Below are positions 1-15,162 of a stretch of DNA of 64,000 bases, in pieces (the first letter of the stretch is position 1; every line of letters starts with the position of its first letter). The notes beneath the pieces are model-generated. The model saw only the letters and a program-made list of their open reading frames with translations. It was not told where the DNA came from and did not search any database. The stretch is taken from NCBI GenBank assembly GCA_938001865.1, contig CALLAW010000053.1, positions 1 to 64,000 of the forward strand. Reading direction: 5' to 3'. A program made the translations under genes and the position numbers. This DNA comes from an uncultured Saprospiraceae bacterium. GTDB taxonomy: Bacteria > Bacteroidota > Bacteroidia > Chitinophagales > Saprospiraceae.

Positions 1-6
1 CCGATT

Positions 7-71
7 AGCAATCCAGCTTAGCAATCAAGATCAGCAATCCCGATTAGCAATCCCGCTTAGCTATCCCGATT
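7..71. repeat. 13-bp tandem repeat array A (5 full units, continues off left edge)
   Basis: Five contiguous 13-bp units start at 7, 20, 33, 46 and 59. The consensus is AGCAATCCCGCTT; variation is concentrated at positions 8-9 (CC, CA, AA) and 11-13. Bases 1-6 look like the end of another unit, so the array extends left of the window. The last unit abuts the conserved core at 72. The units do not encode an open gene and are not separated by spacers, so this is not a CRISPR array. Confidence 0.9.
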
Positions 72-226
72 AGGTGGCGGAGAGGCGGCCTAATTACTGT
101 TCGAGTGGAACGAGTTTAATTAGGCTAGATTTTTTTGCTTCGTTTTTTTATCAATGAAAAAAATGAAGAGAAGGCTAATGCGAAGAATGCAATTAGGATT
201 ACAGAGGTCAGATGGCTGTAAAGTAA
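72..226 (+). repeat. Conserved 155-bp core of dispersed element, copy A
   Basis: The core begins AGGTGGCGGAGAGG. It contains a first inverted repeat (GCCTAATTA at 88-96 with TAATTAGGC at 117-125, inner GTTC/GAAC at 99-102/108-111), then a T-run. A second stem follows (138-149 with 157-168, loop ATCAATG), made of CTTCG plus seven T against seven A plus TGAAG with one G-T pair. A tail of about 58 bp follows the second stem and ends TGGCTGTAAAGTAA. Copy B at 14443-14597 has exactly the same length and differs at about 8 positions by eye. No protein is encoded. The strand is given in the orientation in which the hairpin precedes the T-run; the function is unknown. Confidence 0.88.
88..136 (+). 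terminator. Terminator-like hairpin inside repeat core A
   Basis: A 9-bp perfect outer stem (88-96 with 117-125) carries an inner 4-bp stem and is followed by TAGA and a run of seven T. This has the shape of an intrinsic terminator on the plus strand, but no plus-strand gene is visible upstream in the window. It could terminate a gene to the left, or a small RNA made from the element. Confidence 0.35.
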
Positions 227-247
227 TAGCAATAGAGAGTCACATAC

Positions 248-312
248 AGCAATCCAGCTTAGCAATCAAGATCAGCAATCCCGATTAGCAATCCAGCTTA
301 GCAATCTCGATT
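248..312. repeat. 13-bp tandem repeat array A' (5 units)
   Basis: Five 13-bp units start at 248, 261, 274, 287 and 300, exactly 241 bp downstream of the corresponding units of array A and with almost the same unit order. The array therefore arose by a 241-bp tandem duplication of element A, or by the element repeating in tandem. Confidence 0.9.
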
Positions 313-341
313 AGGTGGCGGAGAGACAGCCTAATTACTGT
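313..341. repeat. Truncated core A' of the dispersed element
   Basis: AGGTGGCGGAGAG followed by a segment ending in TAATTACTGT repeats 72-100 at the same 241-bp offset. Similarity then stops abruptly in the loop side of the first hairpin. The 3' hairpin arm, the T-run and the second stem are missing, so this is a broken copy. Bases 342-408 show nothing recognisable before the tdk stop codon. Confidence 0.8.
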
Positions 342-13561: not shown

Positions 13562-14266
13562 CTATGCTTTACTAATACTGCCGAGAGCATAGCTGTAGCC
13601 AAATGCTGGGGTAAATCCAAAATGTCGAGTTTCGATACCGATAACTGAGTCATTGAGAAAGTTCTGAACAGAATGCTCGTATCCTAATGAAAAAGAAAAA
13701 ATGCTTCGTTTATAAGGGATATCTACTCCCACCAATATATTAGGAGCAATATCAAATCTTCTCACTGCATCTGTGTCTAGATTGAGGTCAGTCTCATTTA
13801 TCTTTATTGGAATTATCACGTTAATCTTTGTCGTAATATCACCTGCATATGCATATCCAAGATTAGCACCAGCCGCTATCCACGGTCTGATATTTCTAGT
13901 CTCAGACGGAAAGTCCAGCTTAAAGTTTAGTGGTATCTCTATATAATGGATTCGAGTCTCTAGTGTAGCTCCCAATGGAAAGTTGATTCCTAAAAATTCA
14001 ATTTCTGTGCCAACGAAGACATCAAACCCTCTTGCCTCTTTGGCTAATCCAGTCAGTATAGAGAACCGATCATCAAGAGGAATAGCAAGAGTCAATGCTG
14101 GTCTGAATGAGGAAATAAAATTACTCTTCGGTGAAAAGTTATCAGGCACTCCAGTAGTCTGCACATTAGAGATGTTGACTCCTGTAGACAATCCAAGTTC
14201 GACTTGGCCAAATCCTATTTTACTGACAAAAAATATTGCGATAATTAAGATGCCCAATTTTTTCAT
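13562..14266 (-). CDS. Outer-membrane beta-barrel protein (PorT-like family)
   Basis: The 234-residue protein starts at the ATG at 14266 with a clear signal peptide (MKKLGILIIAIFFVSKIGFGQ). The mature part alternates polar and hydrophobic residues in short strands typical of an 8- to 10-strand barrel: GLSTGVNISNVQTTG, RPALTLAIPLDDRFSILTGL and a C-terminal strand HFGFTPAFGYSYALG. The frame runs back to 14329, but the upstream part would spoil the signal peptide. Proteins of this class are abundant in Bacteroidota and mostly uncharacterised. Its upstream side faces the repeat element. Confidence 0.8.
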   Translation of the reverse strand: MKKLGILIIAIFFVSKIGFGQVELGLSTGVNISNVQTTGVPDNFSPKSNFISSFRPALTLAIPLDDRFSILTGLAKEARGFDVFVGTEIEFLGINFPLGATLETRIHYIEIPLNFKLDFPSETRNIRPWIAAGANLGYAYAGDITTKINVIIPIKINETDLNLDTDAVRRFDIAPNILVGVDIPYKRSIFSFSLGYEHSVQNFLNDSVIGIETRHFGFTPAFGYSYALGSISKA

Positions 14267-14377
14267 GAGGTATGATTTTTTGATTATGATTGAAAGGTAA
14301 AGCATAAAAATGTTAATATAAGTTATCATACTCTTTGGTAAATGATAAATGTCAAATTACACTAAGTAATTCATCCT

Positions 14378-14442
14378 AGCAATCCAGCATAGCAATCCCG
14401 CTTAGATATCCAGCTTAGAAGTCCCGAATAGCTATCTCGCTT
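14378..14442. repeat. 13-bp tandem repeat array B-left (5 units)
   Basis: Five units start at 14378, 14391, 14404, 14417 and 14430 and lead directly into the conserved core at 14443. Unit number and phase relative to the core match arrays A and A', but the individual units differ more from the consensus (for example AGAAGTCCCGAAT). Confidence 0.88.
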
Positions 14443-14597
14443 AGGTGGCGGAGAGGCTGCCTAATTACTGTTCGAGTGGAACGAGTTTAATTAGGCTAGT
14501 TTTTTTTGTTTCGTTTTTTTATCAATGAAAAAAATGAAGAGAAATCCAATGCGAAGAATGCAATGAGGATTACAGAGGTCAGGTGGCTGTAAAGTAA
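14443..14597 (+). repeat. Conserved 155-bp core of dispersed element, copy B
   Basis: This core aligns without gaps to 72-226, with about 8 substitutions counted by eye. The first inverted repeat (14459-14467 with 14488-14496), the T-run and the second T/A stem are all kept. One change in the second stem turns the outer C-G pair into a T-G wobble rather than breaking it. Both flanking genes are on the minus strand, so the plus-strand hairpin plus T-run terminates no visible gene. Confidence 0.88.
14459..14507 (+). terminator. Terminator-like hairpin inside repeat core B
   Basis: It has the same 9-bp stem and GTTC/GAAC inner stem as copy A, followed by a run of eight T. No plus-strand gene ends upstream: the neighbour at 13562-14266 is on the other strand. 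That argues for an element-encoded transcript or for a non-transcriptional role of the stem. Confidence 0.35.
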
Positions 14598-14618
14598 GAG
14601 TGATAAAGAATCACGATA

Positions 14619-14779
14619 AGCAGTCACGCTTAGAAGAGCAACCCTGCATAGCAATCCCGCTTAGTAATCAAGCATAGCAACCCAGCATAGCAATCCAGCA
14701 TAGCAGTCACATGCAGCAATTCCGCTTAGCGATTCCGTATAGCAATCACGCCTAGCAGTCACGCTTAGCGATCAAGCTT
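14619..14779. repeat. 13-bp tandem repeat array B-right (about 12 units)
   Basis: A first unit at 14619-14631, five extra bases, and then eleven uninterrupted 13-bp units from 14637 to 14779. Variants include AGCAATCCCGCTT, AGTAATCAAGCAT, AGCAACCCAGCAT and AGCGATCAAGCTT. The last unit ends at 14779, the first base of the TTA that is the reverse-strand stop codon of the DUF423 gene. The array therefore runs right up to that coding end. Confidence 0.88.
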
Positions 14780-15162
14780 TATGCTTTCGCCAAATTGATA
14801 ATGAAAAGTATCCAACCAATCAGCATAAGGAGGCCTCCAATAGGTGTGATAGGGCCTAAAAACTTCACACCAAATGGTAACGAGTCTTGTAATGTGAGAC
14901 CATAAATACTGAAACTAAAAAAGAGAGTCCCAATAGTCAACAACAGTAGTGAAGACTTCACATTTAATTGAAAGTAATGACCGACTAAGGTGATTAAAAG
15001 AAGTGAGAGCCCCGAGTACATCTGATAACGAACACCTGTTTCAAAACTCTGTAGCCGATCAGGTGTCAAGATTTCTTTGAGACTATGAGCACCAAATGCA
15101 CCGAGTATGATAGCAAGAAAACACAGTGTACTTCCGATTATGAGATAAGTCTTATTTACCAT
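14779..15162 (-). CDS. DUF423 family small membrane protein
   Basis: The 127-residue protein has four hydrophobic helices and the family's conserved N-terminal motif GAFGAHSLKEIL (about 22-33) after the first helix. DUF423 (YwdK-like) proteins are widespread inner-membrane proteins of unknown function. Its start overlaps the end of ung by 7 bp, so it belongs to the desulfurase-ung-DUF423 run. Its stop codon shares a base with the last 13-bp unit of the repeat array. Confidence 0.88.
   Translation of the reverse strand: MVNKTYLIIGSTLCFLAIILGAFGAHSLKEILTPDRLQSFETGVRYQMYSGLSLLLITLVGHYFQLNVKSSLLLLTIGTLFFSFSIYGLTLQDSLPFGVKFLGPITPIGGLLMLIGWILFIINLAKA

Follow-up and report, generated by a model that had tools for sequence, protein, structure and literature searches.

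Repeats scattered between genes, with three tracts on one strand that are able to form a triple helix, have been described as the PIT elements of Hoyne and Maher and as the TM motifs of ITxF (PMC4666352). Such intrastrand triplexes have been described for E. coli, are catalogued by ITxF and have been linked to genomic instability; the bacterial examples were catalogued by pattern, with experiments on one purine motif (PMC4666352). TM_ECO is a G/C-rich purine-motif element of class II, while class IV, which makes up 4% of the catalogue, consists of a 5′ Hoogsteen pyrimidine tract, a pyrimidine tract and a 3′ purine tract and uses T.A-T and C.G-C triples. The loops searched for by ITxF were limited to 1–6 nt (PMC4666352). 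In the Bacteroidetes, tnpA_REP genes of subclass 2.6 are reported to be flanked by “atypical secondary structures” (PMC6006769), and CGTC repeats form a further palindrome class (PMC3733652).

We describe here an element at the start of a 64,000-nt stretch of DNA from an uncultured Saprospiraceae bacterium (assembly GCA_938001865.1, contig CALLAW010000053.1, positions 1 to 64,000 of the forward strand; hereafter the window). The element shares with PIT/ITxF class IV the tract order Hoogsteen, pyrimidine, purine (PMC4666352). Its loops are 7 nt in the window copies and 6–10 nt in many relatives, exceeding the 1–6 nt of ITxF, a bound that the database sets on its searches and that the structure itself does not require. 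By eye, the aligned copies do not match the TM_ECO/PIT consensus CCCTCNCCC-N3-6-GGGNGAGGG-N3-GGGNGAGGG as given in PMC4666352. Moreover, whereas TM_ECO is of the purine type and class II, the window element is of the pyrimidine type, is closed by a predicted pseudoknot helix of 3–7 bp, and belongs to a family with a preceding covarying hairpin and a GTTC/GAAC-like stem extension. The kind is already known, intrastrand-triplex repeats with the class IV order being the closest. Because the kind is known and no description matching this family was found in the available portions of the open-licence literature on triplex pseudoknots, on Bacteroidetes or Saprospira dispersed repeats, and on REP-like or intrastrand-triplex repeats, we regard it as a variant of the intrastrand-triplex repeats.

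The source genome comprises 3.58 Mb in 108 contigs, and window position 1 is the first base of contig C53. Copy A is a conserved 155-bp core at 72–226 (+ strand, as are all window features given here), near the start of which the alignment shows a conserved 5′ motif, GGTGGCGGAGAGG (73–85). Copy B (14443–14597) lies 14,371 bp away, has the same length and is 95% identical over the 155 bases (~8 differences), and the genes around the two copies are unrelated, with a thymidine kinase near copy A and an OMP_b-brl_2 protein and DUF423 at copy B; on each of these points the initial annotation, made from the letters of the window, was correct. Across the whole source genome there are 14 core matches, made up of 12 full or partial cores, a truncated start and a short fragment, and a covariance model built from ten copies (R1) added a weak extra copy on C35. 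The copy on C108 (L113 2869–2981, G000:C108) is broken within stem 2, near a reading frame.

The cores in the window are flanked by tandem arrays of a 13-bp unit with a consensus near AGCAATCCCGCTT. TRF delimited these arrays at 3–73, 248–314, 14377–14436 and 14637–14779. They are assigned to 1–71 (5′ of copy A, five in-phase units from base 7, cut by the assembly at the start of C53), 248–312 (3′ of copy A, five units), 14365–14442 (5′ of copy B, six units scored, the first weak) and 14624–14776 (3′ of copy B, an array that ends beside the DUF423 stop codon); units were scored in phase with the core at a threshold of 9 of 13 positions. Counting both strands, the window holds 16 occurrences of the octamer TAGCAATC compared to 2.75 expected, and none of 100 shuffles reached 16. 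The initial annotation had proposed that the arrays abut the core in fixed phase, and indeed the phase is identical at all eight array-bearing cores, including the truncated one, with 1 to 7 units scored at each. It had also drawn a single element over 1–341; the array and the core at 72–226 hold, but 313–341 is not array alone, containing instead the start of a second core that is truncated after ~28 bases.

Arrays are present at the copies on C53, C16 (27 kb) and C99 and absent from those on C41, C16 (55 kb) and C108, the C41 copy scoring one unit at the same threshold, probably by chance. A two-unit array pattern gave 22 matches, all at element loci, and inspection by eye showed no arrays beside 30 copies from relatives. 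Because some copies have no arrays and the two-unit pattern is confined to element loci, what is conserved is the core, to which arrays are added locally. The further suggestion that the arrays are sites for a DNA-binding protein found nothing in its favor beyond their existence; they are lacking at some source-genome copies, and none were seen at the 30 copies from relatives. Contig ends repeatedly fall in or near the element: at window base 1, 218 bases from the C16 copy, ~1.3 kb from the C41 copy and 5 bases from a copy in G001:C67. The true copy number is therefore probably higher than our count.

The predicted fold of bases 73–170 consists of stem 1 with an inner hairpin (88–125; pairs 88–94/119–125, 96–98/113–115 and 100–102/108–110), a T-run, and a 12-bp stem 2, whose pyrimidine-rich 5′ arm (138–149) and purine-rich 3′ arm (157–168) are joined by a 7-nt loop (150–156). 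Stem 2 and its loop are as first annotated, but the “9-bp stem followed by a T-run” is really a stem of 7–8 bp that encloses the inner hairpin and is separated from the T-run by TAGA. Folded as RNA, the window copy has a z-score of −3.7 and two other copies −1.35 and −1.05, so that two of the three are unremarkable; folded as DNA, the window copy reaches −5.3 and its complementary strand −4.9. Folding energy by itself gives no decisive support for the fold.

Comparison of copies is more informative on the predicted pairing. Within the source genome, 98.8% of 248 cells are paired over ten copies, with few changes. An alignment of 14 sequences from the source genome and relatives, folded with no structure imposed, recovered the two stems, and 10 of their 21 pairs are changed on both sides; for stem 1 this holds across genera for five of six counted outer pairs. 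Taking the stems together with the pseudoknot helix described below, 95.5% of 335 cells are paired, compared to 78.9% in shuffled alignments, and 46 cells carry two-sided changes compared to 13.0, with none of 500 shuffles reaching 46. As the aligned sequences are related, this shuffle count does not translate into a probability; sliding the partners, a control that retains the relatedness, lowers the pairing to 43–65% of cells. By this comparison both stems, for which the initial annotation had proposed a covariation check, and the predicted pseudoknot helix covary across genera. That annotation had also said what would count against it, namely no further copies, a match to a known family or freely broken stems; the genome instead holds more copies, Rfam gives no match at gathering score and the 248 cells give intact stems.

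The description as a double hairpin captured the structure in part, but two hairpins alone are not the whole of it, as stem 2, its loop and the T-run are predicted to form a pseudoknotted triple helix. The bases GAT at 128–130 are complementary to ATC at 150–152 in the loop of stem 2, and although this helix is short in the window family, all three of its pairs are changed on both sides across genera and 90.5% of its cells are paired. In relatives, the stem 2 loop is complementary to the bases that immediately precede the T-run, with a sequence that varies. For 88 distinct loops among the matches listed, the mean loop-to-upstream complementary run is 3.61 bases, compared to 2.02 for permuted loops (sd 0.11, maximum 2.36 in 1000), and 22 of these 88 pair over two bases or fewer. 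This set, restricted to loops of at least 5 nt with a pyrimidine L1, was reduced from 128 distinct elements among the matches listed. It was drawn from a loose contig pattern matching at least 119 stretches, in which the T-run and A-run were imposed, so that the matches themselves are uninformative for a triplex; a stricter first version of the pattern had no matches. T-run, stem 2 and loop are together predicted to make an H-type pseudoknot that contains a triple helix of the pyrimidine motif.

Many matches in other phyla have loops of 3–4 nt, with no space for a pseudoknot helix, and those from Acetobacteraceae and Oscillospiraceae mostly have loops of 2–4 nt. Such short-loop versions, in which the helix is missing, were seen at L123, L148 and L155 (Acetobacteraceae) and at L142 and L172 (Oscillospiraceae), those of the Acetobacteraceae often having CTTTTT opposite GAAAAA. 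They may be a separate branch or convergent.

The third strand of the predicted triple helix is L1 (130–137), the T-run and a G, which would lie parallel to 157–163 of the purine arm. In the window copies all triples are T.A-T (7 T opposite 7 A), as the class IV tract rule has it, and the C.G test thus rests on relatives, most of which also have only T and A in the third strand and stem and are little informative. We ran a hairpin script over the collected loci with the upstream tract left free except for one G, and included extra hairpins, again with a free upstream strand, that flank loose-pattern loci among the matches listed. This gave 262 distinct hairpins, which are mechanical matches and probably include some non-members, for example that at 1393 in L042. 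The pyrimidine tail of the stem contains a C in 66 of the 262. Where this C is internal, 19 of 21 elements place a C in the third strand just where parallel Hoogsteen pairing calls for it (offsets of 3, 4, 5 or 6), compared to 5 in antiparallel register and a mean of 6.7 with L1 permuted (sd 2.0, maximum 14 of 5000). Before one of two near-identical L260 copies was dropped the count was 20 of 22; in L264 and in one L246 copy the G next to the loop was left uncounted. The elements that lack the match are L280 and one L246 copy. Of 38 elements with C at the loop end, 16 obey the Hoogsteen code, mostly at Acetobacteraceae-type loci, and of six with C at the head end none does. The Hoogsteen register is thus kept inside the tract and often lost at its ends.

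In 395 genomes, one asymmetric pattern had no match and a second had five, with the C as expected in four of them and L280 the exception; these five are part of the 21 internal-C elements and add no evidence of their own. Stem-only patterns with L1 left free were also run on viral contigs, where one of five patterns had no match and the others gave eight sites. Six of these, including two on one contig and two on another, match all eight triples; one fits after a 1-nt slip (L303) and one fails (L302), both of the latter being palindromic and scored on the + strand only. In viral-class contigs, triplex-type hairpins were seen at L298 (1736–1771 and 2083–2120), L299–L301, L303 and L304, with an opposed pair in one contig. 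A BLAST search of plasmid and phage records with the window core found no match.

The mirror-like correspondence between third strand and stem is what a parallel pyrimidine triplex requires, and simple duplication does not produce it. The order of strands (S1, pyrimidine L1, S2, S1′, S2′) is, as the covariation supports, that of a class IV intrastrand triplex closed into a pseudoknot. The telomerase RNA pseudoknot is likewise H-type, its pyrimidine L1 strand lying in the stem 2 major groove; in the SAM-V riboswitch, too, L1 occupies this groove of an H-type pseudoknot. These two are functional RNAs, whereas the element is a dispersed, nearly orientation-neutral repeat known here from DNA alone. 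Taken together, the comparisons make the pseudoknotted triple helix a highly probable structure for the core.

We compared orthologous sites among congeners. At the rplS–ppk site, homology to ppk restarts ~20–50 bases past the rplS stop in all three congeners, while in the source genome the aligned parts are ~720 bases apart, an interval that contains two elements and part of a third. Because three relatives are empty, this difference is best read as a gain in the source genome. At the copy B site, the flanking genes of congener G002 align side by side with neither element nor array; with a single relative to compare, gain and loss would here look the same. At a third site, that of the C99 copy, the flanking genes are on different contigs in the relatives. 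At the empty-site junctions the intergenic flanks are highly diverged and no target-site duplication is definable.

Tandem copies are also found, with periods of 209–279 bp in the source genome, 227 bp in G001 and 221–222 bp in G053. Leeuwenhoekiella aequorea (L126) has tandem units of 264–265 bp that are 97% alike, and Chryseobacterium sp. (L178) two 352-bp units alike at 351 of 352 positions; successive spacers or units are 76–97% alike wherever two are comparable. As the spacers are shared among tandem units, DNA around the core appears to multiply along with it. The initial annotation had considered a mobile or recombinogenic element, and the near-identical dispersed copies, the empty orthologous sites in congeners and the tandem multiplication all favor that view. 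We consider it likely, with good confidence, that the element is gained and lost as DNA.

L268 (2403–3916, G368) and L267 (3895–3978, G145) carry homologous NAD/ADP-ribose-type clusters (SIR2, NADAR, Tpt1/KptA and Metallophos). L268 has an extra two-gene block (Macro and DUF4291) between two same-strand element copies at a position where L267 has a single copy, and a second L267 copy (1974–2057) has none shown at its L268 counterpart. Series of same-strand copies, mostly 1.5–5 kb apart and some of them weak, occur at L263/L264 (G327:C1:595500-630500) and L265 (G267:C17:1-16500); they are reminiscent of integron-like cassette arrays, and by eye the genes between the copies look ordinary.

Apparent relatives of the repeat occur in many other bacteria. 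Model R1 had matches in 15 of 60 genomes; in a set of 395 from the phylum, model R2, built from the 14-sequence alignment, matched 50. Both counts include the source genome.

The placement of copies relative to genes bears on whether the element functions in RNA. Among 261 contexts, 43 lie inside an open frame of at least 100 aa, 47 are without a flank and 30 are too distant, leaving 141 scored, for which open-frame guesses served as gene calls: both neighbors on the same strand as the element in 48, both on the opposite strand in 36, convergent in 32 and divergent in 25. The 32 to 25 ratio of convergent to divergent placement, compared to 80 to 104 in the background, is a mild convergent excess. 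Orientation relative to genes is thus close to random, and this speaks against a terminator or a standard 3′ element. An early set, with tandem copies counted apart, contained 34 copies whose upstream gene was known, and in 24 of them this gene and the element shared a strand; a 3′-UTR or terminator element was rejected when this bias faded in the 141 contexts. A gene-linked element was also rejected: among 132 neighbor proteins, taken from the 148 listed of 232 with 20 other-phyla loci with simple hairpins left out, no Pfam family recurred in more than two. In bases 1–500, a simple scan found no sigma-70-type promoter (Bacteroidota promoter types lie outside its consensus), and a terminator scan, for a G+C-rich stem with a T-run directly after it, found no site in the element and two overlapping sites at 388–406. 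Rfam returned no match at gathering score for the window, and for five element loci seven matches, all far below gathering score, the best of which (E 0.035) lies outside the element.

These data bear on a structured RNA family, as the initial annotation had allowed, in which the element would be transcribed and the triple-helix pseudoknot would work in RNA, for example in 3′-end protection or as a small RNA. That the element is structured is strongly supported. A G.U wobble in stem 2 is nearly fixed (11 of 14 sequences) and points to the + strand as the functional single strand, and the same-strand bias of the first copy set would also favor RNA; however, single-stranded DNA tolerates a G.T wobble too, orientation is near random in the larger set, the limited consensus scans found no promoter- or terminator-like site in the element, Rfam is silent at gathering score, and orthologous sites in congeners exist without the element. 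We therefore regard the RNA part of that proposal as unlikely, if still deserving attention. An intrinsic terminator, or a chance A/T-rich intergenic hairpin, would explain the T-rich sequence after stem 1 and the several source-genome copies that lie between convergent genes. It is nonetheless highly unlikely given the terminator scan, the conservation of sequence and of loop-to-upstream pairing beyond what a terminator needs, and the rplS–ppk neighbors that do without the element in three congeners.

Among mobile repeats, REP/REPIN elements moved by a Y1 transposase (RAYT/TnpA_REP) resemble the element in being short, dispersed, intergenic, hairpin-forming and apparently non-autonomous. The atypical structures beside subclass 2.6 tnpA_REP genes (PMC6006769), a GTGG within the 5′ motif of the source genus and a Y1_Tnp match in 12 of 14 element-bearing relatives would fit such an origin. 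Yet Y1_Tnp matches none of the four genomes of the genus (the source genome and three congeners), it is also found in 30 of 45 element-free genomes, and six genomes with at least seven Y1 matches have no element. Model R1 reached at best E 0.33 in 50 Y1 loci of relatives (the 30 best and 20 weaker, a part of all Y1 matches), and a RAYT/REP linkage was rejected as these searches and scans linked none of the 50. Further, the GTGG lies 10 nt 5′ of stem 1, away from the hairpin foot, and is unconserved in relatives, so that the conserved GT[AG]G at the hairpin foot of REP elements is missing. A REP/REPIN-type origin is largely refuted for this genus and extremely improbable. MITEs are likewise non-coding, shorter than ~500 bp per unit and gained at new sites, but the element has no terminal inverted repeats of at least 12 bp, no defined target duplication and no related transposase; a search with minimum length 12 found no such pair in 1–700 and one pair in 14200–15000 that does not bound the element.

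On balance we favor a dispersed repeat, non-coding and non-autonomous, that propagates as DNA and whose conserved part is a single-strand fold. The T-run tracks the parallel Hoogsteen code of the stem 2 purine arm and, as the covariation supports, should lie in its major groove as a triple helix. Comparison of genomes likewise supports an element that is absent at orthologous congener sites, lies beside unrelated genes and is apparently multiplied in tandem with adjacent DNA. In such a repeat, the fold would form when the strand is single, as in the lagging-strand template, in repair or during transcription, and the folded strand would stall polymerases or be bound by some enzyme. Stalling with slippage could then give rise to the 13-bp arrays and to the 209–279-bp tandem copies, and dispersal might be by a trans-acting factor or by recombination between copies. 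More tentatively, and as a possibility we would not yet lean on, the element may belong to an ancient, large superfamily of mobile bacterial repeats in several phyla, which would carry a telomerase-like triple-helix pseudoknot in single-stranded DNA (or RNA) that an enzyme recognizes and copies or moves, with pairs of copies bracketing gene blocks that come and go in some genomes.

The evidence presented here is evolutionary: the third strand follows internal C residues of the stem in the parallel Hoogsteen register, and changes in the loop are matched by bases beyond the stem, which would mean selection for a triple helix. The element provides a defined, testable sequence, congeners with and without copies form a natural comparison, and the fold is a handle in searching for an enzyme that would read it. 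The fold may also offer a mechanism for 13-bp arrays and tandem repeats that are otherwise puzzling.
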